Source: Siphonodentalium dalli
Lineage: Eukaryota; Mollusca; Scaphopoda; Gadilida; Siphonodentaliidae
DNA length: 64,000 bases
Direction of reading: 5' to 3'
Assembly: GCA_032622095.1 (NCBI GenBank)
Contig: CP136069.1
Span: 101,956,278-102,020,277, forward strand
In this document: piece by piece, positions 2,574 to 46,983 of the stretch
Numbering within the stretch: the stretch's first letter is position 1
How the letters are laid out: each line of letters begins with the position of its first letter
Notes under the pieces: generated by a model
The model's input: only the letters and a program-made list of their open reading frames with translations
What the model was told of the DNA's origin: nothing
Database searches by the model: none
Made by a program: the position numbers and the translations under genes

Positions 2574-4765
2574 TAGTCCAGGAGATATTGGTCGACCTCT
2601 TCACCCCCCACCCCCCAGGACTTAACTTCACCCCACTAATTTTCTTCCTTAAGGTCTCCTCTGATTTTGTTCACTTGTTAACAAGAAAAAAAAGTAGCCG
2701 CAGAGACTCCAGACAAGATGGCGTCCATCATGGCGGCCATTTTTTTTAAATGCACCAGGTCTCTTTGATCGCCATTATAGTAAAGATGATAGCACATGCG
2801 GTCTTGTTTTCCGCTTGATTCGTTATGCTAATATACAACCCTTACAAATTACCCAAAACTCCGACCCCAGAATCCAATATGGCGGCCAAGATGGCCTCCG
2901 AAATGTGAAAATATGCTATTTTTCTGACATGTTACCACCTTTCGTTTGTCTCTGTGGGAAAATGTTAGAATTTTTGCGTCATGTTATACATTTATCATAT
3001 AGAGGAGTCATTGGCGAATACATGGGGACCATAATATGCATTCATTGCGGGATATTTTTGTCCGATATCATGTTTTCCCAAATGCCGGTATCATAGGTCA
3101 AAGCCGAATCTCCGTTAATAACGCGATGTTATGTTTCGAATCAATGAATGTTATTGCTATTATAACAACACCCATGCATATATATTTGCAGGAGATACTC
3201 GAGCTAGGATTCCTCTTATACCTGAGTTGAGGAATATTTACCCAAATCCAAGATGGCGGCCAAAATGGCCACCAGAAATAAAAAATCGCCGAAAATCGCA
3301 GATTTTAACATCAGTGAGCATTATTGTCATGACAACTCCACACTTGCTTACTATTGTAAGTTGGGAACACTTAGGCGAAGAACTTTCCTTGTACCATATC
3401 CAAATAAAAGTCCCCCAAATCCAAAATCCGAAATTCCCTCATATTCACATCATTGGGCATTATTGTCGAGACAACTCCATCCATGCGTACAGTTGAGTTG
3501 GAAATACTGAGGTGAAGTAATTACCTTACATCTCATGCAAGAAATGGTTTTCCAAATCGAAGATGGCGGCCAAAATGGCGACCGAAATTTGAAAATAAGT
3601 CTACATTACTTTACTTTCTTAGGATGGGCGTTATTGTTTCGCGATTTCTACCCACCATTACATGTTGATATGTATGAATTATTCATTAGGGTTTGGCAAG
3701 TGATACTCACAGTCAATATCGCGGCCAAATGGCGGGCAGAAATTGAAAATAAGCCGATATTATCACATACTAATTTCAACTTTTTGTCATAATATTGATT
3801 TGTATAAACGAAACGGTACATAATATAAGCCATATATTAGTTCCAATGTAAGTCGTAGCCTTTTGGAAGGATGAAAACCCACAATCGCAATGTGGCATTT
3901 CAAAATCCATTCTCCACTAAGGGCTCATACTGGCCGTAACCGTATATAGGTGCGCCGAATAGTCATATTATGACTTCCAAGAATCAAAACAACAGTACCT
4001 GAGCTTATTCTGAATTGCCACATTCAGCATTATCTAGACTCGTTTCCGTCTCTTCGTCAGATTAATCTATCTCACTCACAACAACAGTTCAGTACTCTTC
4101 TTTGTAGGAGTGTGCCACTAATCGGAATGTTTCAAACAATACATATGCTGGTGTCCAGCTCACGTGTTGGTTTCGAAAGCTTGGAATTCTTAGCGAGCTT
4201 CATTCGTGGTATAGCTTATGGTATAATTCAGATGCTACATATGGGGTATATGCGTCATCTTTTGCGATACACTATACAGGTATTCGGTGACCTAATGGGG
4301 TTAACAACGTGTACAGCTGGTGATCTTCCAAAAGAGCCACTTCTCAATATATGGTTCATCAATTCACATACTCATCTAATGCACTGACGTACCCGGACAA
4401 CTTCTGTATATGGCTTCGAATGTTGAAAGCCCGATATTTGACGGATGCATTTCTGCTAAGGCGTAGAAGACCATAATGCATAATATATCCAAACTCCTTG
4501 AACATGATCATAAGAACAAGCTTGTTGGCGTCCAGCAATCGTCTCACCGAACATATCCAAGCAGATGATAACAATACACACGGTGCTAGTTTGTGGGTAT
4601 GTGTCATGATAGTGGAAATGAAATTGGACCATGACTGCACCGCCCCTTATTTTGTTATGTTTTAGATTCAGACATGATCTCATGTGTGGCTTTGCTTTCC
4701 TTGTATGCTAAGATTGTATGTCCCCATCCGTTTTGAAGCCGTTCCTAAACAACTGGACCAGGAGT
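2574..4765 (+). repeat. Left arm of foldback element 1
   Basis: The arm opens with the terminal inverted repeat and is largely built from degenerate units of about 155 bp that start with a variant of CCAAATCCAAGATGGCGGCC and contain a weaker CATTATTGTC..GACAACTCCA segment. ATGGCGG-type starts are visible near 2718, 2879, 3253, 3563 and 3720. One unit start, near 3412, has lost its GC-rich core, which the right arm keeps near 6590. From about 4020 the arm is non-repetitive and carries decayed open frames with counterparts in the other arm. The frames at 3131-3510 are by-products of the repeat, not genes. Confidence 0.8.
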
Positions 4766-5314
4766 ATGCCATTTGCTACTGCTGTATAAGCCCCACCAAG
4801 ACTGGGGTGTAGTCTTAAAGGCGATACCTTTGATAGTTGGTTGATATGTCATACTCACGCTGGGTGGTATGGTTCAAGAAAGTACAAATGCCATCAACAA
4901 AAGGGTGAAATGTTCAACGCGAAGAACATCCAGAGGAATGTTACGTTGATGAGCACTTGCATTCAGTTCAACAAACGTTGGTACACCAAGTGATTTCTTG
5001 GTAACATCACCATTTTCCTGCATGAGACATTAACTACTATATTCTAAAGTTATATATATATAAAGCTATATGATCATAAAGGTCGCGTTCCCCAACGGCC
5101 ACAGCCATTGCCATCGAGACTGTAAATTGTTCTTTAAATACATAGTGAAATAAATGCACCATAGTTACTGACATTTTCTTGAATAATACCGCCCACATAC
5201 TGACACTAACCCCGAGAGAGGATAACAAAACACGCATACATTCATGCTATAAAGACGTTATCCTTTAGTCCATCCGACTGTTTTGAGGGAGGCTAGCATA
5301 TTATTATCCAGACA
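4766..5314. other. Unpaired centre of foldback element 1
   Basis: About 550 bp that I could not align to either arm. It contains a short TA run near 5053 and no convincing coding sequence. It would form the loop of the hairpin. Confidence 0.5.
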
Positions 5315-7465
5315 AAAGTGTACGTAGTTGAATCAGAAAGGCTTCGAAACGGATGTGGAAATACAATCTTACCACACCAAATAAAACCGACACGCACGAC
5401 ATTCGATATCTTAAACATGCACCAGGTGTAGGGGTGGTGTATACAGTGGCCCATTTCATTCCCACTATCATGGCGCATGTCCACAAACTAGCACCGCGAG
5501 CATTGTTCTTCTCTGCTGGGAGATATTCGACGAGACAACTGCGGGGCGTCACACAGTTTGCTTCGGATAATGGTCAAGAAGTGTGGGTAGTCTGTACACT
5601 CGGGTCTTCTCCTTAGCAGATAGACATCTGTCCAAGGGAATGAGACAGCTAGCAACATTCGAAACACTGTCGAAGTTGTCCACATATGCCAATGCGTTCG
5701 CTGAGTTTGTGAGTTGACGAACCATTTATTGAGAAGTGACTAGTTAACTGGTTCGCCAGGTGTACATGTCGTTATCCCATGGGGTATGAGACACATACAT
5801 AGAGATGACCTGTAAGCTAGACACCGGAAAATGAATTGTTTGAAACGTTAAGATTAGAGGGACCCTACTCCCAGGAAGTGGTGAATACTTTGTCGGTGTG
5901 CGCGACCTAGATTTTTCAGACAAAGAAATGGAAGCTGGTCCAGATAATTATGGACGTGACGTGGCATATCAGAATCTGTTATCATGTAATTGTTCTGATA
6001 TAACTATTCGGCGCACCTACGCTTACGGCCATTATCGGCGCTAAGTGGAGACTGGATTTCGAAATGCCACATCGCGATATTAATTGTGGTGTTTCATATT
6101 TCCAGAAGGATACGAGCTATGTTATGCGTTTTGATACCTTTAAGTTAATTAGTAGATGGTTTATGTACAGTTTCGTCCATACATACCGATATTATGACAA
6201 AAAGTTGAAATTAATATGTGAAAATATCGATTTCTTTTCTATTTCTAGCCGCCAATTTAGCAGCGATATTGGCTGTGAGTATCAATTGCCAAACCCTAAT
6301 GAATACTTCATGTCACTATTCCATATCAACATGTAATGGTGGATAGAAATCGCGAAACAATAACGCCCATCGTAAGAAAGTAAAGTAATGTAGACTTGTT
6401 TTCAAATTTCGGTCGCCATTTTGGCCGCCATCTTCGATTTGGAAAACAATTTCTTGCATGAGATGTAATGTAATTACTTCACCTCAGTATTTACAACTCA
6501 ATTGTAAGCATGGGTGGATTTGTCTCGACAATAATGCCCAATGATGTGAATATGAGGGAATTTCGGTGATTTTTCAAAATCTGTCCGCCATTGTGGGCGC
6601 CATTTTGGATTTGGGGGACTTTTATTTGGATATGGTACAAGGAAAGTTCTTCGCCTAAGTGTTCCCAACTTACAATAGTAAGCAAGTGTGGAGTTGTCAT
6701 GACAATAATGCTCACTGGTGTTAAAATCAGCGATTTTCGGCGATTTTTTATTTCTGGTGGCCATTTTGGCCACCATCTTGGATTTGGGTAAATATTCCTC
6801 AACTCAGGTATAAGAGGAATCCTAGCTCGAGTATCTCCTGCAAATATATATGCATGGGTGTTGTTATAATAGCAATAACATTCATTGATTCGAAACATAA
6901 CATCGCGTTATTAACGGAGATTCGGCTTTGGCCTATGATACCGGCATTTGGGAAAACGTGATATCGGACAAAAATATCCCGCAATGAATGCATATTATGG
7001 TCCCCATATGTTCGCCAATGACTCCTCTATATGACAAATGTATAACATGACGCACAAATTCTAACATTTTCCCACAGAGACAAACGAAAGGTGGTAACAT
7101 GTCAGAAAAATAGCATATTTTCACATTTCGGCGGCCATCTTGGCCGCCATATTGGATTCTGGTGTCGGATTTTTGGCTAATTTGTAAGGATTATATATTA
7201 GCATAACGAATCGAGCGGAAAACAAGACCGCATGTGCTATCATCTTTACTATAATGGCGATCAAAGAGACCTGGTGCATTTAAAAAAAATGGCCGCCATG
7301 ATGGACGCCATCTTGTCTGGAGTCTCTGCGGCCACTTTTTTTTCTTGTTAACAAGTGAAAAATATTAGAAGAGACCTTAAGGAAGAAAATTAGTGGGGTG
7401 AAGTTAAGTCCTGGGGGGGGGGGGGGGGGGGGGGGTGCAGAGGTCGACCAATATCTCCTGGACTA
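5315..7465 (-). repeat. Right arm of foldback element 1
   Basis: Reverse complement of the left arm. The best-preserved part runs from about 6330 to 7465. A 23-base poly(G) run at 7413-7435 replaces the C-rich stretch of the left arm. In the inner part, the minus-strand frame at 5454-5507 parallels the plus-strand frame at 4570-4623 (NNARGASLWTCAMIVGMK against NNTHGASLWVCVMIVEMK). Both arms may therefore derive from one old coding sequence that now has stops and frameshifts. I do not recognise the protein. Confidence 0.78.
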
Positions 7466-7542
7466 AGTAGACATCGTTCTTATTTATGACCACAGATTTG
7501 TTTCTACAACTCCAATAAAACCGATTCGCCAACAACAACGCC

Positions 7543-7643: not shown

Positions 7644-8101
7644 GGAATCACGGAACTAAATGGTTTCCCATAGGCGACAGTGTTAACGTTTCGGCCAAAT
7701 TCGCTGAATTGAAGCCTGAAGGCCATACCAGTGATGTTTACCCAGCTAGATTGACACCAGTTGATCACGAAAATGCAAGAAAAATCATAGGTCATGTGTT
7801 TACTTTTTAAAATAAATCCCCAAGTGTACGACAGGGCTATCTCACAGCCAAATTTGATCTGGAAAAACCCAGATCTACAACAGCTAGTTAAATACATTTC
7901 CCGCTCACAAAAATCCGTTCCCCCATTCATTCACCAGTTTAAATTATTTAGATATTATGTACAAATCAAATAAACGCGATGTCATCCTTTAATAACGTGT
8001 CGCATGTATCAGGTGAAGGTCATTCTTCAGTTACCTTCACCTTTAGGGTTCCACGGTGTACTCGCTCCCCGACTCTAGAACACATTTAGCTCCCTGATTC
8101 C
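7644..8101. repeat. Left 458-bp terminal direct repeat
   Basis: First copy of the LTR-like repeat. It contains an AATAAA at about 7967-7972, which could act as a polyadenylation signal if this is an LTR. The open frame read on the minus strand (7616-7930) occurs in both copies and has no protein-like features. Confidence 0.85.
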
Positions 8102-8992
8102 GATATATATGTATATGTGTGAATAACAGCGTTTCTTATAGTATTTTATCAAAATATAGACCTTACTGAAATCAAAAATGGATTATATCGAGCAGTAGTG
8201 GTTTATTTTTCCAATATGAGGCATCCTGAAAATTAGTGTCAATCCTCAAAATAAAGCAAAAAAATTTAGCTTTTTTTTCAATTTTACTAGCTAATGCATC
8301 TTGTATAACTGAAGTATGTCCTTATATACCGTAATATTACTAAATTGAAGAGGAAATGTTAATATACATTTTGAGAGGGATATATTGTCCAATTTTAAAC
8401 CCTTTTCATGCAGAATTTGGCAATTTATAATAAATATTTACCAAAATTAACAGAAAATATAAATTAAAAATATTTTAATAGCAATGTAAAGCAACCATAA
8501 GTCAATTTAAATATCGAAACATTATGATACAACATCAGACACAGCCTCAGGCATGAAATTTTACCAGATGGCAGGGCATACTGTCTGTTTAACAAAGCTG
8601 CCATGACAGTTTTGCACGACAGTAACTCTAGTGGTGATGTCATCACCCCCCCCCGACTTGGGGTGGGGCTACGGTCCCAGATAAGGCTACTGGGTGCCGG
8701 AAAAGCTTAATTGGGTCAAATGACACATTTTCCCAATGGGGGGGGGGGGGGGGCTAACACTCCTCAAAATTGTGGGGAGGGGGCTTAAGACCCCCTGACC
8801 CCCTAATGGTACCTGACATCCATGGAAAATTACCAGATTTATCACTTTCTCACTATCTACAGGGGAATCCATGCGTTTCTTCTTTAAATCTGTCCAAAAT
8901 GTGGTCATTTTCATTTGAAAATAAGAAAATATGGAAATAACAACTTATCATGGTGAGACGTGAAATTTCGTAAAATTCTAATTTTTCTTATA
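8102..8992. other. Noncoding interior of the LTR-like insertion
   Basis: 891 bp of AT-rich sequence with C-rich and G-rich patches at 8646-8655 and 8738-8753. No gag, protease, reverse transcriptase or integrase similarity is visible, so the element would depend on proteins supplied in trans. Confidence 0.6.
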
Positions 8993-9450
8993 GGAATCAC
9001 GGAACTAAATGGTTTCCCATAGGCGACAGTGTTAACGTTTCGGCCAAATTCGCTGAATTGAAGCCTGCAGGCCATACCAGTGATGTTTACCCAGCTAGAT
9101 TGACACCAGTTGATCACGAAAATGCAAGAAAAATCATAGGTCATGTGTTTACTTTTTAAAATAAATCCCCAAGTGTACGACAGGGCTATCTCACAGCCAA
9201 ATTTGTTCTGGAAAAACCCAGATCTACAACAGCTAGTTAAATACATTTCCCGCTCACAAAAATCCGTTCCCCCATTCATTCACCAGTTTAAATTATTTAG
9301 ATATTATGTACAAATCAAATAAACGCGATGTCATCCTTTAATAACGTGTCGCATGTATCAGGTGAAGGTCATTCTTCAGTTACCTTCACCTTTAGGGTTC
9401 CACGGTGTACTCGCTCCCCGACTCTAGAACACATTTAGCTCCCTGATTCC
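8993..9450. repeat. Right 458-bp terminal direct repeat
   Basis: Second copy of the LTR-like repeat, ending CTCCCTGATTCC directly before the second ATGT target copy. It differs from the first copy at two positions I could find (A to C near 9068 and A to T near 9206). Confidence 0.85.
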
Positions 9451-9454
9451 ATGT

Positions 9455-11295
9455 GCCAATACCTCCTGCCATCGCTAAAGTGGAAAACGTGAAACGACCT
9501 ACCATATCTGCAGCAGGTACCAGCGAAGAAAGGACGTACTTCACAGTTGTTAGAATGTTGTGACGACCCACTCAGAAAGGACCTAACGAGATCAGCTGGC
9601 GGCAGCCTCACAAATAAAACTGAAAATGAAGTAAAAAGACTAGCTGTCCGAGAAGAAAACACCATGGTTGCCCGTGTGACGCTGCATAACATGCGACAAG
9701 ACCGAGACGAAGCAATTCGTAGTTTCGCTGGACCACTTCGTGGACAAGCCAGTGTATGCAAATTTCTAATGCAATGCCAAGGATGTGACGGTGAAGTCAA
9801 CTACACAGAAGAAATACTTCGTGACGTTCTTTCGCGTGGACTTGCTGACCCGGAGCTTCAATTTGACCTTCTCGGTGACAAAAACCAAGATATGCCTCTA
9901 GAGGAGGTCTTTCAGTTTGTTGAAGCCAAGGAAGCCGGTAAACGCTCAGCTTCTCGCCTCCTGGATTCTCGCGCAGTGGAAGCCGCTCGTAGCTCCTATA
10001 AACACAACAAACAGTCTGACATGAAGGACAAATGTGAACCATGTTCATACTGTGGAAAACGAAAACTCTGCAATCGTGATCATCACCTGGAATGTGTTTG
10101 CCACAACAAAGACAAGCCGAAAGTGCAAAAACCCGCTGCTTCTAGCATGGTTGAATGTGATGGTGCAGTGTTAGGTACGTTATGTTCCGCGAGTGACTCT
10201 CAGGACAATCGGGATCATCACCTGGAATGTGTTTGCCGCAGCAAAGACAAGCCGAAAGTGAAAAAACCCGCTACTTCTAGCATGGTTGAATGTGATGGTG
10301 CAGTGTTCGATGCGTTATGTTCCGCGAGTGACTCTCAGGACAGAAAAAGTGACAAGGCCATCGCACATCACGTTTACGACATGCTTTCGGACGCTTGGTT
10401 CAGGAAAAGTTTGAAGCCTCAGCCATTCGTTGAACTCAAAGCAAAAGTCCTACCAGCAGACTACGATGCACTTGGGTTCATAACCACCTTCCGACCCAAG
10501 ACAGCTCATTTGTCGGCAATGGCAGACACGGGATGCCAGAGTTGCCTCGCCGGCATTAGAGTCAATCATCGCCTTGGTCTGCGACAATCTGACCTAATTC
10601 ATGTCACTACGAAGATGCACGCTGCTAACAGAAAAGGTATCAAGATCATCGGCGCCACCGTAATTCGACTTTCCGGTGTTTATGGACAAGGACAATCTGT
10701 CGAAACTAGGCAAATGACTTATGTGACAGAGTCTTCTGACAAACTATTTCTCAGCAGGGAGGCATGCACCGACATTGGTATCATTTCTACCACCGTTCCC
10801 AATTCCCATGGTAGGCGAAATACACAACATGTCAACTACAGTACTGCCGACGCCGTGCATACTGATGGGGATGGGTACAATGACGTTATGAACATGAATG
10901 GGATTTCAGCGTCATGTGACTGTCCACGACGTCAGCCAACACCACCGCCACCAACCAAATTTCCATTTCCTGCCACCGAAGAAAACAGGTCGAAGTTGCA
11001 CAACTATCTCATGAATCACTACAAATCTAGCACATTCAACATCTGTGAACACCAACCTTTGCCTCTGATGGATGGACCACCTATGCGGGTAATGGTCGAC
11101 TCGAATGCAACACCGGTTGCTTACCACACGACTATACCTGTCCCACTTCACTGGCAAGATAAAGTCAAATCAGGACTTGACCAGGACGTAAGGCTGGGAG
11201 TACTGGAACCAGTCCCTGTGGGCGAACCGGTCATTTGCACTAAGAAGAATGGGATGCCGCTAAGAACAATTGGCGATCCCATATGCACGTGGTAA
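9455..11295 (+). pseudogene. Gypsy gag, protease and start of reverse transcriptase
   Basis: Gag resumes at 9455 and changes frame near 9530-9547. The main open frame is 9547-11295 (582 codons, no ATG at its start). Residues 1-150 are gag. Residues 155-190 hold a degraded zinc knuckle (CSYCGKR and later H and C residues). Residues 176-265 are two copies of a 45-residue block. The aspartic protease active site DTG is at residues 327-329 (10525-10533). A proline-rich linker near residue 465 is followed by the reverse-transcriptase N-terminus with LPLMDGPP and VPLHWQDKVKSGL, as in Ty3/gypsy pol. The frame ends at 11295, just after a deletion that removed part of the fingers domain. Confidence 0.85.
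10072..10341 (+). repeat. 135-bp in-frame tandem duplication within gag
   Basis: Two head-to-tail copies of 135 bp (10072-10206 and 10207-10341) encode 45 residues each. Both begin NRDHHLECVC and end CSASDSQD. The length is a multiple of three, so the frame is kept. The block includes the last Cys and His of the zinc-knuckle region. Confidence 0.9.
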
Positions 11296-11580
11296 AAAGA
11301 AGACAGTATTCGACGCATGGAATGGATACCACAGTATACAATCCATGAATCGGACCGTCACCTGACTACTTTCATTACACCATGGGGGAAGATATCGTTA
11401 CAAGACAGCACATCAAGGCTATATCGCTCCCGGTGACGGCTACACCAGACGTTATGATGAGATAGTGTCAGACTTTCCAAACAAAACAAAGTGCATTGAC
11501 GACGTATTGCTGAATGGCTTGACATTTGTGGTCGACACGGGATCATCCTAAATCCTGAAAAATTCGAGTTTAGGCAAGAT
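11296..11580 (+). pseudogene. Broken reverse-transcriptase core of the gypsy relic
   Basis: Across the frames one can read typical Ty3/gypsy palm motifs: DAWNGYH near 11312, a TTFITPWG block near 11370, a GYTRRYDEIVSD block near 11440, and the catalytic box as CIDD at 11492-11503. At least three frameshifts or small deletions separate them. The enzyme cannot be made from this copy. Confidence 0.8.
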
Positions 11581-12186
11581 GTGGTGGAATTTGCTGGCTT
11601 TGAGATAACATCTGACAACGTTCGACCCTCAGTGAAGTATCTGCGTTCGATTCTGGACTCCCCGGACACCAAAAACATCACAGCCATCCGTTCGTGGTTC
11701 GGCCTAGTCAACCAGGTGTCATATGAATTTAGTATGACTGAGAAGATGTTACCATTCCGCCAGCTACTGATACCGGGAACATCATTCAAATGGGACGAAG
11801 ACATCGACAACCTATTCGAGGACTCGAAAACCATAATTGTCCGAGAAATAGAACATGGTGTCAAGATCTTCGACAAGAACAGACCCACATGCCTGGCTAC
11901 AGATTGGTCGAAGGGCGGCATTGGTTTCTGGATGCTTCAGAACCACTGTAATTGTCCGAACTCAGAACCCGTCTGCTGTCCTACTGGGTGGAAAATCACT
12001 CTTATCGGCAGTCGGTTCACACACCCAGCTGAAACAAGATATGCGCCAGTCGATGGTGAAGCCCTAGCAGTGGCCGATGCACTTGATAAAGCCAGATACT
12101 TCGCACTAGGCTGTAAGGATCTTATCGTTGCGGTGGATCACAAACCCCTTCTTAAAATATTCGGTTATCTGTATAACTATCAGTAG
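11581..12186 (+). pseudogene. Gypsy reverse-transcriptase thumb and RNase H fragment
   Basis: A 201-codon open segment. Its first part (VEFAGFEITSDNVRPS, IRSWFGLVNQVSY) is the reverse-transcriptase connection region, and the second part is RNase H with catalytic Asp in ATDWSKGGIGFW (Asp codon at 11902-11904), Glu in GEALAVADALD, and Asp in VAVDHKPLLK. Homology ends at about 12165, and the last residues before the stop are unrelated. Integrase and 3' LTR are missing. Confidence 0.85.
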
Positions 12187-12595
12187 AAGTCTTATTGACA
12201 TTACTGACTTCCAATCTAACTACTTCTATTGAAAATAAAAGAAAACATTTGATGGAAATTTAAATTAAAAATAAAATTTCGCCCATCTATGGAAAATAAG
12301 CTTGATATCATTACGACAATATTAACACGACATAATTCTCTTAAAAGTGTAACCCCTGGGGGGGGGGGGGTTAAGTCTATTATAAGTTACACGTTCACGG
12401 ACTAGAGGTCCAGTTTAGCGATATCTCCTTCTCTCTTTCTGGAACACAACGTAACAAGAAAACCATAGTCAGAAATGGTAACGCGCTCAAGATAATATAT
12501 TATATACCCATGATTGTAATTAATATTATAGAATATAAAATATATTGGTTCCGTGAATGACTAACTCAGAATTCCGTTAAAATAAAAATAACAAC
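12187..12595. other. Noncoding spacer with dispersed-repeat segment
   Basis: It contains a 13-base poly(G) run at 12358-12370 and a 31-base stretch at 12454-12484 that recurs almost exactly at 54709-54739, with weaker similarity for about 80 bp beyond. No coding features were seen. Confidence 0.5.
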
Positions 12596-13325
12596 CAGCA
12601 CCTAATTAACGAACCGGCGGCCGACTCGGCCGTCTCCGACCACAACCATCAATGGGCTGCAGAACGAAAAATGCTTATAACAGTTGAAATATAAAACCTA
12701 CAAATTATCTTTTCATTTATTTTATTTGTAATTGACATAGCTTGTCACAAACCAAAAATCAACATTATTGACATAATAATGTAAAGGGCAATAAAGAAAT
12801 TGAAATTCCCAACTACACCTTTTACCGGACTTGGCCTTCGAATTTTAAATATCCCAAAATTTCCCATTCTATAAATAAAACACCTATGTTAATGTCAGCT
12901 CCCACGGTTATCTAGAATCTCTAGGACAGTATACATGCGGCGCGCGTAATAATCATTTGTATGATACCTTACGGCAATGTGTAGTGTAATCAAAGAATTT
13001 CTGCATTATTCATCTTATTATATAACGTCCCCGGTGTATACTTTTCTACAAATTTTAGAAAGCTGTGATCCGCTGGACATTTTATAAATAGATAATGGGG
13101 TTTTCCGGTTATTTTGGGACGCATTGAAGTTGTACTGCGACCCCGAGCCCGGTAAAAGGTGTAGTTGGAATTTCAATTGCGTTTATTGTCGTTGATTTTG
13201 GTTTGTGATAAGCTATGCCAATTACAAACAGAAGAAATGAAAAATATAATTTGTAAAATGCGTATGTCAATTGGTACGTGTTGTATGAGTGTAGTCTGAG
13301 CCAACGGTTCGTTAATTAGGTGCTG
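12596..13325. repeat. 730-bp inverted-repeat (MITE-like) element
   Basis: CAGCACCTAATTAACGAACC at 12596-12615 is the exact reverse complement of 13306-13325. Similarity continues inward, for example 12720-12840 against 13135-13240, which share an AACTACACCTTTTACCGG segment in opposite orientation. The core between the arms is about 200 bp. No transposase and no clear target duplication are seen. Confidence 0.7.
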
Positions 13326-13656
13326 ATCGGTGTGACAGTTTGCGGTAGGTCACCTATTTGCTGAGTATTTGCGAAAGTCCCTGAATTCGCGGAGGTCCCC
13401 TTAAATGGTCGAAATATGTTGATTTTAATGAGAGAACGGGTGCGTATATATCTCAATTGATACGTATTTAAAAGAGGTTAGTCGGATACAGCCGAGTCCG
13501 CCACCGTTCGTTAATTGGTGCTGATCGGTGTGACAATTTGCAGTAGGTCCCTATTTGCGGAGGTCACCGAATTCGCGGAGTTCCCCTAAAATGGTCGAAA
13601 TATGTTGATTTTAATGAGGGAACGGGTGCGTATATGTCAATTGATACGTATTTTAA
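13306..13656. repeat. Direct duplication of about 150-165 bp
   Basis: 13306-13471 and 13506-13656 share a segment from GTTCGTTAATT to GATACGTATTT, including TCGAAATATGTTGATTTTAA. A third copy lies in the opposite orientation at 55004-55152. The first unit overlaps the right terminus of the inverted-repeat element. Confidence 0.75.
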
Positions 13657-13698
13657 ACAAATAACGACACGGTCATCATAATAGTGGTTTGTTCTATC

Positions 13699-13745
13699 AA
13701 TCATCATCATCATCTTCATCATCATCATCGTCATCATCATCATAA
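13699..13745. repeat. (CAT)n trinucleotide microsatellite
   Basis: An imperfect run of CAT/ATC repeats interrupted by single substitutions. The methionine-rich minus-strand frame over it is an artefact of the repeat. Confidence 0.9.
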
Positions 13746-14267
13746 TACGGAACAAGTCTTGCGACTTTTCGTCCAATAACATTATTTGCAATGTTTGTTT
13801 ACAAATATATGTATCGTCATTCGATATTTACTTGTGAGTCACTTGAACATATATATATTACTAACTAATTCTTGTCGTCGAACTCGTATTTTATATAATA
13901 GAAGAATGAGTCTAATTTATATTTTGAATTGATCGTGTGTTGGAGCCTCATCAGCGAAGTCTGGCAGAGAGTTCCAGCTATTTATTATATGACTGTCATT
14001 ATTTTCACTAAATACCACCATTGTTTGGTGATGGTTTTCTGATTAATCGGATCATGATGGTATCGTGATCCGATTCCATACCATGCGTGTCTGAATCAGA
14101 ACGAGGCTCCTGAACTATTTTCAATTGAGACACTTCTTCTTAAAATTGTTGTTGATTAAATTGTTGCGATTCGTTCATTAAATTTGAATTCAACTTATCA
14201 CCTTTTTCGCAATACAATTTCAGAGGTTCGTTGTAATAATTAAGTTCAATTGGTCATATAATAACCA
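13746..14267. other. Unassigned AT-rich spacer
   Basis: About 520 bp without a recognisable gene or repeat apart from short TA runs near 13850. Confidence 0.4.
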
Positions 14268-14432
14268 TATTATTACTACAGTGAAGTTATCTGAGTCTCC
14301 ACATTACGTCTCGTTGAGAAGGTGAGATCACGGATCAGACTCGCAGCCTGCGACAGCTCGTCTGATCCGTGATCTCACATTCTCAACTCGGTGTGATCTG
14401 GAGACTCAGATCACTTCACTGTAGTGATAATC
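14268..14432. mobile_element. Mariner-like hairpin MITE
   Basis: A 165-bp near-perfect palindrome with a short loop near 14345. The core ends are CAGTGAAGT at 14279 and its complement ending at 14421, each bordered by TA (14277-14278 and 14422-14423), as expected for Tc1/mariner-type MITEs that duplicate TA. The complementarity extends about nine bases beyond the TA dinucleotides. It abuts the C-terminal end of a LINE fragment, which it may have cut. Confidence 0.7.
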
Positions 14433-14888: not shown

Positions 14889-15159
14889 GGAAGGCTAATC
14901 TGGCCGTGTCAAATTGAGCTTTAGCTATGGGATATCTCGCAGGACAACACATTTCGGGTTTTCGTGGGCTGTGTATTCGCTGGATGTCTTATAGTTGCAG
15001 TATGTAACTATTATGACCGCGTTAATTGCGTTCGATGTTTAGGTATGAACAATGGCTGGGCCATGCACATTTGAAGATTTTATGGCGGGAACACAATTTT
15101 TGATCCGCATTTAGAAGCTTTCTGGTGTAGTAAATGAGACACCTGCAGTAATAAGCCGT

Positions 15160-17664: not shown

Positions 17665-17667
<3 letters not shown>

Positions 17668-17715: not shown

Positions 17716-17717
<2 letters not shown>

Positions 17718-29935: not shown

Positions 29936-29984
<49 letters not shown>

Positions 29985-32982: not shown

Positions 32983-33017
<35 letters not shown>

Positions 33018-35990: not shown

Positions 35991-36425
35991 GGTCGCCCGT
36001 GAACTATCTACCATAGAATTGTTGTAGCTATCGATTATACATTTTGGAACACCTGTCTGTATGTATGTGTGTATGTATGAATGCATGTGTGTATGTGTTA
36101 TAGACTCTAACACTGCTCGACCGATCCGACTCGGATTTGGTATTTAACGTGTCAACTTGATCTCGCTCATAGGCATGTTTCTGGACCTTGACCGATCCGA
36201 CTAAACAATTGTGTGTAGGACTATTTCGATCCCGGGAGCAATATGGACGGGTCCAATTTCACGTGGGACCATGTCCTCGAACGTGCTGATATAGGCATGT
36301 TTCTGGGCCAATTGAACAATAGTTTGGCCAGACGCTGTATATACTGGGTACTGTCCAGATGGAGGCGATCACAAAAATTCCCTAAATAGCCCGAACGAAG
36401 TCAAGTACATCAGCTAGTCTAATAT
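35991..36425. repeat. Degenerate dispersed repeat ending CATCAGCTAG
   Basis: It contains TATG-rich microsatellite-like sequence near 36060, repeated phrases ACCGATCCGACT and ATAGGCATGTTTCTGG, and ends with CCCGAACGAAGTC...CATCAGCTAG. The same type of ending occurs at 36885-36905, which suggests two members of one family lying side by side. Confidence 0.5.
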
Positions 36426-36915: not shown

Positions 36916-37993
36916 TCTAGATTTAGTTACAAACTAAATACCTGTATATTGTACAAAGAAATGTTTGACAAATATATCTATATCCATATTACCATACGAG
37001 TCATACAAATAGATATGACGAAACAAATTTTGAAGGGTGTATGTATCGGGTAAATTTTTATATTTCAAATGATGACAGGAATGCGGAAATTTGAGGTACC
37101 TACGTAATATACTGGCTATCCGCATGAAGAGATATACATGTATATAACAACCAAAATAGAAGATGACTGCTGGCGACAATGTTTTCCAAAAAAATTCAAA
37201 GCATTCGATAGCTACCATCTAGTTTTCAGCCCGAAGATCAATATGAAGTTTGGTGAGTATCAGATGAGGGATATGTCTGTACAGTTGCTAAACAATTCAG
37301 TCATGCAAAAGAGTAAGATACCAAATTGCTGCCTGTGGTCATGTTTTTTAACGAAATTCGGAAAAATTAGATTACTCTCACCCTGGTTATCCAGAAGATC
37401 ATTGTGGAATCTGGTGACGATCGGACGAGGGGTGTCGTCTGTAGGATCAACCAAATTATTTAGCCATAAAAATAGTAAAATTCAAGATCACCGCTGGCAG
37501 TGATGTTTTCACAAGGAAAGTTTGAGAACAAAATATGGCTCACATCTAGCGGTGACCCAAAATATCCACATGAGAAAAAGTTCTCCAATAAAAGCTGGCT
37601 GCAGGGTGCGCCAATTGATTCAAATTTGAAATTTAGCAGGGTATACTGACAAAACCACTGAATCCGTTGAATCAATATACATGTATACATGGATTCATTT
37701 ATATGCATTGTTATACACATTACCGGTATATAAAGGTACTGAAAATAACTATTTTACTATAGTATACACAAAATAAACCATATATCATGGCTATGGGTTC
37801 TAATATCCGAACATGACAACTGAGAACTTGGTGTGAATTGAAGAGTGGTGGTGTCTCAAGCATATCTAACCCTCCACGTTAGGAACATGCCATTAAATGG
37901 CATAAGTATAATCTAGCTTGAGGACAGAAGTGATCCATAAAACCCCCCTTAATTCAATCAGGTCCTCGCGCGCGATGTATGGTCGATCACATG
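36916..37993. other. Noncoding DNA with dispersed-repeat segment
   Basis: The stretch 37160-37330 contains ACTGCTGGCGACAATGTTTT and GAAGTTTGGTGAGTATCAGA. A related stretch is at 47240-47400 in the same orientation, on the other side of foldback element 2. A weaker internal repeat of the CTGGCGAC phrase is near 37490. No gene was recognised. ATG at 37991-37993 is the candidate left target duplication of foldback element 2. Confidence 0.5.
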
Positions 37994-40140
37994 TAGTCCA
38001 GTGCATTTATGGTTTCACCTCAAAATAATTGCAACACAAAGTTTCTCAGTGGGAATAAGTACTTCAATCCATCACAAATAATATACTAAAAATCAACAAG
38101 AATCAAGAAATGCGAAATTGATGAATTTTGGGAAATAAATTTGGCAAAATTTGGTAAAAATACTCATTTTATAGCTTTTTAAGGATGTTTATAAAAAACT
38201 TCCTTTCACATGTCCTTCCATTTATATATCCATTTTGTAGAGTGCACAACCCTGATTACAGAACAGAAAACCTTTCCTAGATACGTTCAGTATTTTTTTA
38301 GTTATGTGCCTCCAAAATTTGGAGTTTGTCTAATTTTGGAGGCTCAATTTCTCAAAATTAGTTAAAATTCATTTTTTATGGTCTTGTATTTTAAAAAATA
38401 AAGACAAAATGAAGGGATTCCTTGTTGTTTTAGTCATTTCCTCTTTAGGTTGTGCACACCATATGATTTCTTTATGCATCTATGATTGAGAGGACAAAAA
38501 TATTCTTAAACAAAATGTGTGTTCCACCATTGTATGGACAGCCAAATTTGCCTGTGGTCCAGAACCGGCGTGATGAAATAGCATATTTGATGTCATACAA
38601 ATCAATAATTATATATCCATATTCCCTGTCTTTCTCATAATCACTTAATAGTGCAGCGGCCAAATCGAAAAAGAGCTCTAGTTTTCGAGATACCCCTACC
38701 CACGGTAGAACAAGTTAAAACTAACTTTTTTTAAATGAGAAATATATACTCTTTACGAAAATCATAGTGAAAAATAACGGAATTGGTGGTGGCTATTCTC
38801 AAATTGACGATGAACGATACCCACCAGTGACTTTCCCCAGAAATTAACGATTTTGGTAAAGTGAGCCCTGCGGCTATGTCCTAAGTTATTTGCCCACATT
38901 GTTGGTGTTAAAATGCCTACAGCATACCTTATTTGTACCTGATATGCAAGAAGTGTTGGTTAATTTGGATTTTCGTGCCATTTGGAGCCGAAACATTTAT
39001 TTTTTGTTGAAAAATCGCTCTTTTTAAAACAAATTATATTTTTCGAACATTATCATTCAAACGTATATTGCAATAATATTGAAATATTTAGGTCATATGG
39101 TGTAGTAGTTATCTAACAAGCATATGAAGAAAGAAGTTAACAACAATTTTGAACGGTTTGCGAGATATTGGATTTTAGCTACCCCTCCCCCAAACACGTT
39201 TTTGGTCGAAAAAAATACATATTTTTGATAATGTCATTACAAACATTTTTGAATTGATCTGAATGGGACCCAATATGAATATTCTACTGAAAGTGTTGTC
39301 CAGAGATGCCGTTTAAACGATTACAGATGTGTTCAGGCTTTCAGACCCCCAGTTACAACAACAACAATTATGTTATAGATAACAGTTAATTTTGCATGCA
39401 TTAACATCGATGTTAAGTACTAAAACCTTTGTTATAAACAACGTGACCAACTATATAACATATGGCTCAGTAGTTATCTGGACAACACAAGTAGAAAGAA
39501 TTTTGACAGAAATTGAAAAATAACGGAATAGGTGGTGGCTGTTGTCAAATCGACGATGAGCGATACCCTCCAGTGACTTTTTCCAGAAATTAACGATTTT
39601 GGTAAAGCGAGTCCTGTGGCTATGTCCTAGCCTATTTGCCCATATTGTTGGGGTTAAAATTACTACATCATACCATACTTCTACCTGATATGAAAAAAAA
39701 TGTTGGTTAATTTAGATTTTCCTGCCATTTGGAGCCAAAATATTTATTTTTTGCTGAAAAATCGCACTTTTTCACAAAAATATTATTTTTCGAACATTTT
39801 CATTCAAATGGATATTGTTATAATGCCCAAATATGTAATTCTTATGGTGATGCAGTTATTTGCAAAGCATATGCAGAAAGAAGTTAACAGAAATTTAGAA
39901 CAATTTGCGAAATAATGGATTTTAGCTACACCTCCCCCAAACAGGTTTTTGGTCGAAATATTACATATTTTTGTTCAGAACTTTACCAAACTTCCCAATT
40001 GATCATACTGGGACCCAACATAATTCTTTTGCTGAAAATTGAGCCCGGGGACATTGCTTAAGTGATTAAAGACGTGTTCAGGCTTCCATACCCCAAATTA
40101 CAACAACAACGCATTTTATTTGCTATTACATACAATAATT
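37994..40140 (+). repeat. Left arm of foldback element 2
   Basis: From 38020 to 38640 it pairs with 45050-45640 in reverse complement, and from 38640 to 40140 with about 42905-44010. Within the arm a 746-bp unit is duplicated head to tail: copy A from 38769 and copy B from 39515, both starting GAAAAATAACGGAAT and containing GATTTTAGCTAC followed by a CCCCCAAACA segment. It is noncoding and AT-rich. Confidence 0.8.
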
Positions 40141-40489
40141 GTCGCATATCAATCAACCAATCAATAGTTTATTCTAAAAAAAACCAATAATGGTATACAG
40201 AGATTACAATAATTGGACAGCTGGAGAACCCAGCATGTCCGACGTATAGACGCACAAGTACTCCATTCGCGTTTAAGATTGAAATGCAGTAGTTTGAACT
40301 ATGGCCAATTGAGTAATCACATTAAAACGTCCCCTCCATGTCATTGCGGCAAATAGAAAAAGCATATCATGACTTTTTTGGAATACAGTGGTCCTAAGAC
40401 AGAACTTCTATGCAGATGCAGACTTTCGGAAACCAACACATATGTAAATTCTGATAAAACCTAACCTTTGGTCAATATATTAATATTGG

Positions 40490-42830
40490 GGTCATATCAT
40501 TTCACCATGTGGTGTCTTCCAAGACTTCAAATAAAGTTGGGGTCCTCAAAATTTTGCCTTTCATATTTTCCAGTCACTTTTCGTTGAGTGCTCATTCTTT
40601 CAGAACCCAAATCCATCTATTTACATTGTTTACGTCCTTGTACAATTAACTCGCCATTGTCCGTACACGCAGTCAATGATGATATCGTTCCAATCCGTGG
40701 TGTGTTCTAGTCTTCACATTGGGAAGGGGGTAATACAAACATTGAAAAATCGCATTATTTATTTTTCAGTCGCTTTTTGTAAAGTGTCCCTGACTGTCGG
40801 GTATTAACCCATCTATAACAATTGTGTATTTCTTTATAGAATAGCCATTTGTCCATATCGTCGTTTGACCATGATGGCACATCCATTCAGTTCGTAGTAG
40901 GTTCAATTGTTTACATGGGGTAGGGGTCCCTTAAAATTCGCCTTCATCGTTTGCCATCTGCTTTGTGTAAGGTGCCACGGTGTTCTCGCGAACGGCGGGC
41001 TCGCGAGACCATTGCCATTCGGCCACAATCTCGGGTAATATGGATAGCTAATGCCTTGAGCTAGTGTTGTGTTCAAGACTTCAGATATGGATGGAGTCCC
41101 CTGAGAGTAAAATTTAGCCCTTTCATTTGCTGACCATTTGTTGTAAAGTGCCATAGGCTACCGGGAACCATCTCATCCATAACAGATTCATATTGCCAGA
41201 TAATAATCCCATTTGTCCACAACTTCAGTTAACATTGAGAGCATATCATTTTGTTAAGACTTCAAGTTGGATAGTGGGGTCATCAAGACATAGAAAATTC
41301 GCCTTCTTGTTTGCCAGCCGCTTTTTGTAAAGTGTTCCAGGATTTCGAGGGAACCAAATCACCCATATATCAATTAATAATTCCATGACAGCAATACCTT
41401 TCGATCACACACTCATCTAAGTGAGAGAATATAACTTCAGTTCATGCTCTGATCAAGATATTAAATGGGTTAATGGGCCCCCCCCCCCAACAGTGAGTAT
41501 TCGCCTTTCTCTTTCATCAACAACTTTTTGTTGACCCAGACATTCAAGACCCTGGTATACTATACTTTTTATATAGCGTCCATTTCTCTACACACGCAGT
41601 TAATAATGGGAGCACATCCTTTCGGTTCATTGTGTGTCCCAAGACTGCAAATGGGGTAGTGTGGCCTAACACATTACATTTCGTATTTGCCAGCCGCCTT
41701 TTGTAAAGTGTTCCAGGATTTCGAGAACAAAACCACCCATACAAATTGTAAATAATACATGAGAGCATATAGATTCGGTTCAGTGTGTGCTAAAGAGCTT
41801 AGAAGGGTTATGGGTACCCAAAACAGTGATATTTCGCCTTTTCTTTGCTAGCCACTTTTTGTAAAGTGCCCCAGACACTGGGAAGCCAGCCAACCCACCC
41901 ATCGTGCAATCAAGAGGTATATTTCCTGAATTACATACCATTTGTCCACACCCCAGTTAATATTAAGAACATGTCCATCCATTAGTGTGTTTAAGACTTT
42001 AAATGGGGTAGGATGCTCAAAGAAAATATTCAGCTTTGGTTTTTGCCAGCCGCCTTTTGTAAAGTACCCTAGGAGTTTGGGAACCAAACTACCCATACAA
42101 CATGTATATTCCCTGATAGCACTACCTTTCGTTCACACTGTGATTTAATAATAAAAGCATGAATATTCGGCGCATGGTGTGTTCAAGAGTTTAAATGGGC
42201 ATATAAAGGGGTCTCGCAAAAAAAAAATATTCGCCTTTGGAGTTTGCCATCCGATTTTCGTAAAGTGTTAAAGGCTTTCGGGATCCAACCAATCCATCCA
42301 TCAACACCATGTATGCGCCCCGATATTACTATTTTTGCCCACATCCTCAGTTAATATTTACAGCAATCATTTCAGTTCGTGAGTTGTTCAACTTTAACAC
42401 TTCAATTGTGTAGGGGGGGGGGGGCCTAAAACAGCAAATTCGTCTTTCTTATTTAACAGCCACTTTGTGTAAAGCGACACATGCACAACCCATCCATACA
42501 AATTATGTATTCTCTGATAGAACTACATTCCCGTCAAACTCTCGGTTAATATAGAGAATTAGAGATCATATAGCTTAATTTCGTATTGCGTTGAAGTCTT
42601 TAAATTGGGTAGAGTGTTCTTGAAAAATATAGCAAATTCGCCCTTCATATTTGCCAAGCAAAGTGCCACACTGTTACGGGAACAAACCCATCCATAAACA
42701 TTGTATATTTCCTTATGTAATTGTCCTTTATAATTGCATGATTCTTAATACTGAGATCATATTTTGTTCAGTTCATGGTGTGTTCAGGACGTCTAATAGG
42801 GCGGGGAGCAACAATGATTTTGTTCTGTAT
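40490..42830. repeat. Degenerate tandem array, about 12 units of 180-205 bp
   Basis: Each unit carries, in order, a GTGTGTTCAAGACTTCAAATGG-like phrase, an AAATTCGCCTTT phrase, GCCAGCCGCTTTTTGTAAAGTG, ACCCATCC, and CAGTTAATATTGAGAGCAT. Units start near 40509, 40690, 40885, 41065, 41250, 41430, 41618, 41771, 41975, 42165, 42370, 42570 and 42770. By eye the units are clearly diverged from each other, so the array is old. It occupies the loop of the foldback element. Confidence 0.85.
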
Positions 42831-42904
42831 GATTATGTTAGTCTATATTATGTGTCGTTTAGAACAAATACTTCAGTTGCTCAAATCGATATGTGTTAAT
42901 ATAA

Positions 42905-45681
42905 AATTACATGTCATAAATAAAATATTGTGTTGTTGTTGTAACTGGGGGTTTAATTGGAAACCTGAGGTCATCTAAAACCAGGCTCGCGGTGTCTACG
43001 GATCAGGTTTTCATCACACGAATAATGATTAGATGCTCATTAGAATAATTTAGAAAGGTCTGTCTTGTTATCATAAATATGTAGTTTTTCTACCAAATCG
43101 CGTCCGGGGGAGCGGTACCTAATTCCAATATCTTCAAAACCGTTGACAATTTCTGTCAAATTCTTTCTACTTGTGATGCCCAGATAACTACTGAGCCATA
43201 TGAATTATATAGTTGGTCACGTATTGTTTATAACAAAGGTTTTAGTACTTGACATCGATGTTAATGCATGCAAAATTAACTGTTATCAATAACATAATTG
43301 TTGTTGTTGTAACTGGGGGTCTGAAAGCCTGAATACATCTGTAATCGATTAAACGGCATCTCTGGACAACACTTTCAGTACAAGATTCATATTGGGTACC
43401 ATTCAGTTCAATTCGAAAATGTTTGTAATGTCATTATCAAAAATATGTATTTTTTTCGACCAAAAACGTGTTTGGGGGAGGGGTAGCTAAAATCCAATAT
43501 CTCGCAAACCGTTCAAAATGTTTGTTAACTTCTTTCTTCATATGCTTGACAGATAACTACTACACCATATGGACTAAATATTTCAATATTATTGCAATAT
43601 CCGTTTGAATGATAATGTTCGAAAAATATAATTTTGTTGAAAAAGAGCGATTTTTCAACAAAAAATAAATGTTTCGGCTCCAAATGGCACGAAAATCAAA
43701 ATTAACCAACACTTCTTGCATATCAGGTATAGATATGGTATGCTGTAGTCATTTTAACACCAACAATGTGGGCAAATAACTTAGGACATAGCCGCAGTGC
43801 TCACTTTACCAAAATCGTTAATTTCTGGGAAAAGTCACTGGTGGGTATCGTTCATCGTCGAATTGAGAATAGCCACCACCAATTCCGTTATTTTTCACTA
43901 TGATTTTCGTCTAGAGTATATATTTCTCCTTCAAAGAAAGTTGGTTTTAACTTGTTCTACCGTGGGTAGGGGTACCCGACCACTTTTGGCGTTTGGCCGC
44001 TGTACTATAAGTATACATCTTTAAACACAGTGTAAAGGAATTTCCCAAATCATGGTGTAGAAAATCAAATTATGGCCCTATGAATCTTTAGAATTGACTC
44101 ATCTAAAAATGCCATTTTGGGGCGTTTTTTTTTTTCATTTTTAAAGGTTTTTGTGTATAAATTGTAAAAACAATGTATGTTTAATGTGCAAAATCATTTG
44201 AACTTTCCTCCTGAAACACTTTAGTGTTGAAATAAATGCATTATGTTGGATATGTCAATGAATGTCACTGAATTTCACTAATTGTTCTGGAAACTGATGC
44301 CGAATTTGAATATCTGAAAAATGGGGGTAGGGGAAACCATATTGACAAAATCTAGAAAATATGGACCTTGATGCATAAAACTTTAACATCACCAGCTCCT
44401 ACAAACCTTATTCTTTCATACAGAGTAAACTGCTTCCTGTTTTTATGTTCATATTTAGAGCTACAATCCTTTTTGTTGTAACTCAATGGCGAAATGGCGA
44501 ATCATTATTTCGGGCTGGTTCTATATAACATGCTGATAAAGTTCTAAATAAACATCTAATAATTATTAAAGTACTATACTGTTTACCATGCAAGAATAAT
44601 CTGCACAAACTGGAATAAAACAACCCTTTGTCTCCAATGACTAGAATATGGTGACAAGATCATAGCCTTTGTGATTTCACCTACCCCATTATCAACATTC
44701 AAATTTGGAGTCAGTTTCTTGAAAAAATATGTGAAATCCAGTGACTGTTGATTGGCATAACCAATGTAATCATATTTTTTCCAACACTAAGTGTTTTAGG
44801 AGGAACGTTCAAATGATTTTACACATTAAACACTAATTGTATCTCATCATTGTTTACTATTTGTGCACAAAATAACTTTAAAATAGACAAAAACACCACA
44901 AAACAGTCCAAAATGGCATTTTTGGAAAGAGTCAATACAAAGGATTCATAGGGCCATAACTTGATTATGGCACATATGTGTTTAGCAATTCCAGCACAGT
45001 GTATACGTAAGAGGTTATGAGAAATACAGGGCATATGGATATCAATTTATTGAGTTGTGTGACCTCAAATATGGTATTTCATCACACCAGTTCTGTGTCA
45101 CAAGGCAAATTTGGCTAAGTCCATACAATCGAACACACATTTTGTTTAAGAATATTTTTGTCTTCTCGATCATAGATGCATAAAGAAATCATTTTGTGTG
45201 CACAATATAGTGAGGCAACTAATACAACAGTAAGATATCCCTTCATTGTTCTCTAGTTTTAAAAATACTAGACCCTAAAATATGGATTTTAGCTAATTCT
45301 TCAGAAATTGAGGCTCTGAAATTAGACAAACTCCCAATTTTGGAGGCACATAACTCGAAAAATTCTCAACGTATCTGGAAAATGTTTTCTATTCTGTAAT
45401 CAGGATTGTGTACTCAACAAAATGGATATATAAATGGATGGACGTGTGAAATGAAGTTTTTTATAAACATCATTGAAAAGCTATAAAATGGGTATTTTAC
45501 CAAATTTTATTTAAATTTATTTCACAAAATTTATCAATTTCGCCTTTATTGATCCCTTTTAGATTTTTAGTTTTTTATGTTGTTTATAATTGGTTAATAG
45601 ACTTATTCCTGCTAAGAAACATTGTCTTGCAATTAGTTTGAGGTTTGGCACTTTATTCTCATAAATGCACTGAACTAATAG
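42905..45681 (-). repeat. Right arm of foldback element 2 with nested insertion
   Basis: 42905-44010 pairs with the left arm's 746-bp unit and its flanks. 45050-45681 pairs with 38000-38640 and ends in a second copy of the terminal sequence (CATAAATGCACTGAACTA). The intervening 44010-45050 has no left-arm partner and contains its own inverted repeat. Confidence 0.78.
44040..45000. repeat. Nested inverted repeat in the right arm
   Basis: About 200-bp arms: 44040-44235 contains TTATGGCCCTATGAATC and AAATCATTTGAACTTTCCTC, and 44770-44990 contains their reverse complements. The spacer is about 530 bp. It is noncoding and could be a separate small foldback element inserted in the arm. Confidence 0.7.
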
Positions 45682-45726
45682 GCACGAAGATCCTTATGAA
45701 CATGGGAGGGAAAGATGTTATGAGTT

Positions 45727-46203
45727 ATGTATTCACTATTCAAGCGAACATCTCAAGCAATAATAATGAGAGCTCCGTCTCTCAAGATCGACAACGACGT
45801 TGTACACATCGACCCACAACTCTTGTTTCAGAGGCTTATCACTGTTGCCAAAGCGCCGACCAGGGGTGATGTAACCTGCTGTGTCAGACTTTTTATATGT
45901 AGAAAAGTATTTCATTTACATACACACTATCACCAGGTGCAGTGTTGGAAGGGGCTTAATTTGGAACCAACTGATTGGGGATGGCAGGTTAAGGATGGGC
46001 GGCTTTATCCTATCAAATGTGAGGAACCACCAGCTCCAAAAGAACTACTGAACATCATTCGTTGTAAATGTAAAACGGACTGCAAAAGCAATAGGTGCAC
46101 ATGCCGAAAACATGGAATTATGTGTTCTATGTCTTGTGGGGAATGCCAAGATGTTGACTGTTCAAACACACAGCCTTTCGACAACAGTGAAATGGAGGCC
46201 TAG
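45727..46203 (+). pseudogene. CXC-domain protein relic (158 codons)
   Basis: Residues 113-145 hold a dense cysteine cluster with spacing CxCxxxCxxxxCxCxxxxxxCxxxCxxCxxxxC, like the Tesmin/TSO1-type CXC zinc-binding motif. Just before it is DWGWQVKDGRLYPI...PPAPKELLNIIRC, a layout I associate with the C-terminus of large uncharacterised proteins repeated in many marine invertebrate genomes. Residues 21-38 (IDNDVVHIDPQLLFQRLI) look like a more N-terminal piece of that family, joined here after loss of the middle. Frame 45727-46203 ends in TAG, about 780 bp before the element's right terminus. It is probably decayed transposon-borne coding sequence; a host-gene origin is possible. Family recognition is from memory. 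Confidence 0.6.
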
Positions 46204-46329
46204 ACTAAAAATCAGAACGATCTATCCAGACATATTATTTTTTCAAAATTCTATATTTTTTTTAAATGAATTTCTATATATTTCTCTCTTTTTTCACTAT
46301 TTTGCCACAAGATATGGATTTAGTGTCAT

Positions 46330-46830
46330 TGATACAACAACCTGGCCCAAAATTGATGGAAAATCCCATATATAACTGACTGACAACAGTCCAAGTCCAA
46401 CTATGGCAATTTTCTAATGCATAAACATGTAATGTGAAATTCCATTTTTCTCTGATTTATTGTCATTTTTACATCTTTTCACCCTAAAATATTTTGATTA
46501 TTTGCTTGTAGTAACAACATGAAAAAACCCACAATTGTGGATATAACTATATAACAATAGTTCCAAGTCCAGTTATGACAATGTTACAACTGCATCAAGA
46601 GTTATTGTAGACTTCCAGTTTTCACTGAATTTTGGCAAATTTTTCAACTTTTTGACCCAAATTTAGAAAATTTAATCAATATTTATAGAATAAAATGATA
46701 CAAAATATTGGATACAACTGTACCACAGTTTATCATAATGAAAATATAAAAATTGTATGTTTACATCAAGAGTTATTAACAAAAAATGTTAATCTCCATT
46801 TTTCACCAATTTTTCATCATTTTCGCCACT
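46330..46830. repeat. Degenerate tandem repeat, about three units of 170-190 bp
   Basis: CCAAGTCCAACTATGGCAAT near 46391 recurs as CCAAGTCCAGTTATGACAAT near 46561 and in weaker form near 46725. Each is followed by a CATCAAGAGTTATT-like or CATTTTTCAC phrase. It lies between the CXC relic and the right end of foldback element 2. Confidence 0.6.
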
Positions 46831-46983
46831 TTTTGCCTCAAAAAGGCCATTTCGCATGTTCAGATTTTTGTTGATTTTTAGCTGAGTATACTCTATGATG
46901 CTCCCAACCAAAATAAAACAAAATCTTTTGTGTTGCAATTATTTTGAGGTTCAGCCCTATTTTCTCATAAATGCACTGGACTA

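Follow-up and report, generated by a model that had tools for sequence, protein, structure and literature searches.

In a stretch of 64,000 nucleotides from the scaphopod Siphonodentalium dalli (assembly GCA_032622095.1, contig CP136069.1, positions 101,956,278 to 102,020,277 of the forward strand; hereafter the window), we found three foldback elements with related ends: E1 (2574-7465), an older element M that is split in two (37994-38648 and 44011-45677), and I (38649-44007), which separates the two parts of M. The ends themselves, their 3-bp target site duplications (TSDs), the nesting of I in M with an empty-site footprint and the resemblance of M's left end (L) to the right end of a tail (T) that follows M can all be observed directly. 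We consider it reasonably likely that E1, I and M, as non-autonomous foldbacks with a 3-bp TSD, owe their mobility to transposases supplied in trans from a single superfamily, probably AcademX, and that M and the tail moved together in a hybrid transposition event. E1, I and M would then represent at least three families of cut-and-paste DNA transposons whose ends have the core TAGTNCAG in common.

E1 measures 4892 bp, has the ends TAGTCCAGGAGATATTGGTCGACC, begins with TAGTCCAG at 2574 and closes with CTGGACTA at 7465, between two copies of the TSD AGT (2571-2573 and 7466-7468). It forms one palindrome over nearly its entire length, as a preliminary description of this DNA had proposed. The outer arms agree at 1175 of 1222 aligned positions (96.2%) and the inner arms at 699 of 1078 (64.8%), with identity breaking sharply at 3796/6188 (likelihood ratio 408). 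The only E1 frame tested (6494-6907, minus strand) matched no Pfam family and no coding capacity was recognised in E1. The motif ATGGCGGCC, which we take to resemble a YY1-type site, is confined to E1 within the window, where it occurs four times on the plus and three times on the minus strand (at 2730-3571 and 6432-7308); three of these seven copies read AA[AG]ATGGCGGCC.

The second element of the preliminary description (E2, 37994-46983) starts with the same TAGTCCAG at 37994 and ends with the same CTGGACTA at 46983, between two copies of ATG (37991-37993 and 46984-46986). The identical terminal octamers and the 3-bp repeats AGT and ATG reported for the two elements are exact to the base, and their interiors differ as stated, with no BLASTN match between E1 and E2 at E 1e-3. 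The claim that E2 is palindromic needs correction, since the palindrome ends at 45677 rather than at 46983 and contains a nested element. E2 is in fact a composite of three parts: M, I and the tail T (45678-46983). M begins with L (TAGTCCAGTGCATTTATG), and its left arm up to the insertion (37994-38648) is 82.2% identical to the reversed 45008-45677 (82% when 37994-38647 is compared with 45008-45677). The left arm is interrupted at 38649, and the remainder of M (44011-45677) comprises the rest of the left arm, the loop and the right arm with the right end R1 (TAGTTCAGTGCATTTATG on the minus strand), which is flanked by ATA. When 38649-44007 and one TAA are excised, the left arm of M aligns in register with the reverse-complemented right arm, ungapped at the junction (CACTTAAGTATAC versus CTCTTACGTATAC); 38649-44007 is therefore a separate element, I, and the opposite arm of M is its natural empty site. 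This alignment fits a 3-bp but not a 2-bp duplication. I (5359 bp, ends TAGTGCAG/CTGTACTA, TSD TAA at 38646-38648 and 44008-44010) is thus, nested in M, the third element here to start with TAGTNCAG and to be flanked by a 3-bp duplication.

The outer arms of I are 94.6% identical over 857 positions (93.4% by BLAST), and here too identity breaks sharply, at 39516/43146 (likelihood ratio 308). The abrupt step suggests that, within E1 and within I, one outer arm was copied anew from the other, by gap repair or conversion following excision, at a time well after the inner parts had arisen. Such a step may record arm-to-arm copying, which bears on the growth of foldbacks and on the upkeep of palindromes. 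Tandem arrays had been described in both elements, and repeats are indeed detected by self-BLAST and by an anchor scan, albeit in degenerate form: Tandem Repeats Finder returned no row in E1 and two weak rows in E2 (39737-39790 and 44518-44562). In the arms of E1, direct repeats recur at about 172-bp spacing with 73% identity (6399-6615/6571-6788), and in I a segment of about 600 bp is repeated at 746-bp spacing with 81% identity. The loop of I harbours a satellite-like array of about 190 bp on the plus strand (40569-42476), with 10 anchor matches at spacings of 158-209 and one of 376. Long inverted arms that account for much of the element, together with a TSD, as expected of foldbacks, are present in E1 and I; M has the arms, and its own flanks, ATG on the L side and ATA on the R1 side, do not match. 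The tandem repeats inside arms that also characterise foldbacks occur in E1 and I in the degenerate form just given.

Beyond R1 (CTGAACTA, ending at 45677), the tail T extends for 1306 bp on the plus strand and closes with a second right end, R2 (CTGGACTA at 46983; TAGTCCAGTGCATTTATG on the minus strand). Along 56 bp, R1 and R2 share 85.7% identity, and no similarity beyond; the pairwise comparison of L with R2 gives a gapped alignment of 166 bp at 64.4% (E=5e-13). Between R1 and R2, two copies of one end, lies the remnant of an open reading frame (ORF) of 159 codons (45724-46203, plus strand) whose C-terminus CKCKTDCKSNRCTCRKHGIMCSMSCGEC is CXC-like, with the spacing C-x-C-x3-C-x4-C-x-C-x3-G-x2-C-x3-C-x2-C. 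The window contains a single instance of this eight-cysteine spacing, which none of 100 shuffles reproduced, and the Pfam family TCR (tesmin/TSO1 CXC) aligns to the remnant with E=0.18, which is below the cut-off of the model. A second frame stays open for 63 codons, counted from the junction (45678), and could represent a preceding portion of the decayed gene. We take the motif HIDPQLLFQRL and the CXC tail to belong to a widespread animal transposon protein that presumably has an XPG-like nuclease between them, a part that would be deleted here. No significant copy of the ORF was found elsewhere in the window. The tail, as the putative 3' part of an autonomous relative adjoining M, may be the remnant of the gene for the moving enzyme.

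How did M come to share an outer TSD with this tail? Because the matching TSD stands at the outer ends of the composite (ATG/ATG at L and R2) and not at M's own right end, the whole composite was probably transposed in one piece, using one end from each of two related elements. M would have inserted into a transposase-bearing relative at a site flanked by ATA, T being what is left of that relative's decayed and shortened gene; the transposase would later have paired the left end of M with the right end of the relative, and the entire stretch from L to R2 would have moved to its present site, creating the new TSD ATG. I would have jumped into the arm of M either before or after this hybrid move. 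A hybrid unit is dispensable if M inserted alone, next to or inside an old relative that afterwards lost its left part, with ATG at 46984 matching by chance, an account that we regard as rather unlikely. It gains from the ATA after R1, which is one base off ATG, and from the age of M, whose arms are about 81% identical, making a single mutation plausible. It requires both a fortuitous match of the outer flank, with odds of 1 in 64, and a mutated TSD, however, whereas the hybrid move requires only that the old flank ATA happened to be one base from ATG, as 9 of the 64 triplets are. Naive arithmetic, which ignores correlated histories, favours the hybrid move over a solitary insertion of M by a factor of about 20 to 35. 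If confirmed, the hybrid composite would show that the ends of different elements can pair and how minimal the recognised end is. A literature search on alternative transposition brought up mainly maize Ac/Ds cases.

Several superfamilies come into question for the transposase that would have moved E1, I and M. TSDs of 3 bp are made by Zator, Harbinger and CACTA transposons; Harbinger prefers the target TWA, CACTA ends start with CACTR, Kolobok targets TTAA, and autonomous AcademX elements carry an XPG-like nuclease domain and a transposase bearing the Academ DDD/E signature. E1 (AGT), the composite (ATG) and I (TAA) each have a TSD of 3 bp, and no match of 4-10 bp was detected for E1, I, the composite or M, so the 8-10 bp TSD of Mutator (MULE) foldbacks is not seen in E1, I or the composite. 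A Tc1-like arrangement (a TA duplication with ends starting GTCCAG) was considered and rejected, since the flanks just outside TAG...CTA match over 3 bp in all three cases (E1, I and the composite), and a 3-bp duplication also fits the alignment at the empty site of I in M. That the three foldbacks belong to Zator, PIF/Harbinger or CACTA instead of Academ appears rather unlikely to us: the 3-bp TSD is not unique to AcademX (its length is the same in Zator), and Pfam found no transposase domain that would decide. On the other hand, AGT and ATG do not fit the TWA target of PIF/Harbinger although TAA does, the ends do not start with CACTR, and the CXC-tailed protein presumably stems from a family of animal transposons that encode an XPG-like nuclease.

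The available text on the AcademX branch states that its TSDs are 3 or 4 bp, and those of AcademH 9 or 10 bp; its author links this contrast to the nuclease and helicase that these elements encode (PMC10045372). The 3-bp TSDs of E1, I and the composite agree with the AcademX length, and the nuclease that AcademX encodes (PMC10045372) was not recognised in the partial ORF remnant. Academ elements are numerous in bivalves, and the curated ones, according to the portion of that study at hand, are autonomous with a mean of 5565 bp, which sets them apart from the foldbacks described here (PMC10294476). The literature searched, as far as its accessible text goes and with the primary AcademH paper (Kojima 2020) outside its coverage, contained neither an Academ foldback nor a detailed description of an Academ protein. 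The affinity to Academ that the preliminary description had raised is consistent with the published TSD lengths and, on general background, with the protein remnant, and no homologous transposase turned up in prokaryotic or viral collections. Within our reading AcademX would be the most likely superfamily, an assignment that draws on the published TSD rule and on general background and stops short of proof. Foldbacks with a 3-bp TSD, one of them nested in another, would demonstrate that a superfamily beyond Mutator has also given rise to foldbacks.

We weighed the ends statistically. The octamer TAGTCCAG/CTGGACTA occurs in four exact copies in the window, with no others, and these make up two inverted pairs. 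Four copies against a chance mean of 1.27 are only mildly unusual (5 of 100 shuffles reach this number), and the count on its own is weak evidence. We also scored the full configuration, an inverted octamer pair 60-12000 bp apart with identical 3-bp flanks, against a control of 60 Markov sequences: it occurs twice in the window and never in the controls. With one mismatch allowed in the end pair, the window has four such configurations and the Markov sequences 0.97 on average and at most 5; because this relaxed configuration is not enriched, near-match end pairs count for little when taken alone. Screened without a given motif, 272 inverted end pairs yielded 14 rows with a TSD of at least 3 bp, E1 and the composite both among them; of the other 12, seven are pairs within E1 or the composite, one is an unrelated pair (8170-14679), three are AT-rich pairs around 53 kb, and one is a 93-bp mini-element. 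The nested element I was missed by this screen.

Several results speak against the reading that we propose. Chance should produce about one end pair that has a 3-bp repeat and a single mismatch, and the end pair of I, which shares seven of the eight octamer bases at each end, would therefore not count alone. The Repbase rule for non-autonomous elements, as given in the accessible text, calls for an equal TSD length and at most one mismatch in positions 1-11 (PMC4455052). The terminal 11 bases of E1 and L, I and L, and E1 and I differ at three positions each, and those of E1 and R1 at four; only L, R1 and R2 agree mutually under this rule, and with 3-4 mismatches in 11 the terminal identity alone does not unite E1, I and M with its tail in one superfamily. 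At the empty site of I, the opposite arm of M reads TAC instead of TAA, and a 12-bp gap opens eight bases past the junction. The inner arms of I are 46% identical, a value that is a lower bound and stems partly from misaligned tandem repeats. ATA differs from ATG by a single base, which suits an insertion of M alone followed by a mutation. The proposal that one transposase group moved both elements is still plausible on the basis of the octamer, the 3-bp TSDs, the nested third element and the protein remnant between two end copies, the 11-bp rule being the part that does not hold.

The ORF remnant adds further results of this kind. Pfam recognised neither a DDE nor a nuclease part in it. Searches for relatives confirmed none of 5 stretches matching the pattern in viral contigs and none of 26 in prokaryote genome contigs; tblastn gave no match among phages and one among plasmids at chance level (E=0.4, 32% identity), and phmmer gave none in the PDB. 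Because these collections are prokaryotic or viral (the PDB apart) and hardly cover animals, the absence of relatives says little. The back-translated eight-cysteine spacing retrieved 32 viral and 83 prokaryote stretches, 115 altogether, whose translated matches are mostly cysteine-rich low-complexity frames. A few (e.g. L041, L047 and L073) are not extreme, and no convincing relative appeared in the 40 best tblastn rows among the 115 stretches, the best being L073 (E=1e-4 over 36 amino acids, with composition correction off). An AlphaFold model of residues 18-159 (142 amino acids, single sequence) had a mean pLDDT of 37.4 and was useless. The end TAGTCCAGTGCATTTATGRG had no match in viral contigs, in a search limited to that end and not extended to those of E1 or I.

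On the basis of the ends one might hold that E1 and E2 are unrelated, each with a different transposase, and share the octamer by coincidence. The lack of BLASTN similarity, the three mismatches in 11 terminal bases and the weak enrichment of the octamer would all agree with this. Yet two independent foldbacks would share eight terminal bases with a chance of 4^-8, both have a 3-bp TSD, and the third, nested element again carries seven of the eight bases at each end and a 3-bp TSD, which makes a coincidence distinctly improbable. That the palindromes are assembly artefacts from inverted read joins can be dismissed as highly implausible: long inverted repeats are notoriously hard to assemble and the window also contains a tandem triplication of about 99.6% identity, but the arms are non-identical, diverge stepwise and carry indels, and TSDs bound E1, I and the composite.

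The architecture of E1, I and M, with long arms, tandem repeats and other transposable elements (TEs) and ORF pieces in or near the arms, is already known from Galileo and Tetris. In the accessible descriptions, Galileo, a foldback-like element of the P superfamily in Drosophila, likewise has very long inverted arms that are extended by tandem repeats of about 140 bp, with other TEs inserted in the arms and ORF pieces recruited into them (PMC4168063). It differs by a TSD of 7-8 bp and a P transposase, in contrast to the 3 bp, the other ends and the CXC-tailed remnant of E1, I and the composite (PMC4168063). Tetris of Drosophila virilis resembles them as a foldback without transposase that carries tandem repeats of about 220 bp in its arms and has the final portions of its terminal inverted repeats in common with DAIBAM, both probably being moved by the same autonomous element (PMC4079207). 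Unlike them it has a TSD of 8-10 bp and was assigned by its authors to Mutator, to which, the available text adds, most foldbacks seem to belong (PMC4079207). KolobokP composite-like transposons, so far as described in the accessible text, also have repeated terminal units and hence alternative ends, but these are long terminal direct repeats with a Kolobok transposase and not inverted foldbacks with a 3-bp TSD (PMC9587614). The 3-bp TSD and the ends in common with a CXC-protein remnant set E1, M and I apart from Galileo and Tetris.

The 93-bp mini-element (59838-59930) is palindromic, with ends TAGTCCAAGTCTTC, the first 30 bases perfectly inverted and a 9-bp duplication (CGGGCCCCT); its first seven bases are as in E1 and L, and its TSD length is different. 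As a speculation to which we attach little credence, Academ-type transposases might recognise little beyond an 8-bp end code (TAGTNCAG) and shape, such that foldbacks of unrelated sequence parasitise them and end-swapped hybrids such as M with T transpose, and the mini-element (TAGTCCAA ends, 9-bp TSD) might belong to AcademH, the two branches sharing the end code.

The remainder of the window is rich in TEs, with Pfam matches to reverse transcriptase and RNase H, and contains no tRNA or Rfam match. A 458-bp direct repeat (7644-8101 and 8993-9450, 99.6% identity) is followed directly by a long frame with no Pfam match (9493-11295) and then by a frame with RNase H matches (11500-12186); the repeats of 7644-9450 may be copies of a retroelement's long terminal repeat. 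Region 14783-33289 holds about three tandem copies of a unit of about 6.1 kb with about 99.6% identity, a partial copy of 584 bp at 97%, and AT microsatellites at 17668-17715 and 29939-29982; this triplication is either a very recent tandem event or an assembly effect. Reverse transcriptase domains (Pfam RVT_1) lie at 33953-36007 and 50474-50944, both on the minus strand, the second gene being broken into several frames, and both regions appear LINE-like. Adjoining the broken gene, a weak match to the phage Mu transposase family DDE_2 (49448-49945, minus strand, E=0.0023, below the cut-off) is probably due to chance. Arrays of a 19-bp AT-rich unit (TTAGAATTAAAATATTAAG) occupy 53045-54020.

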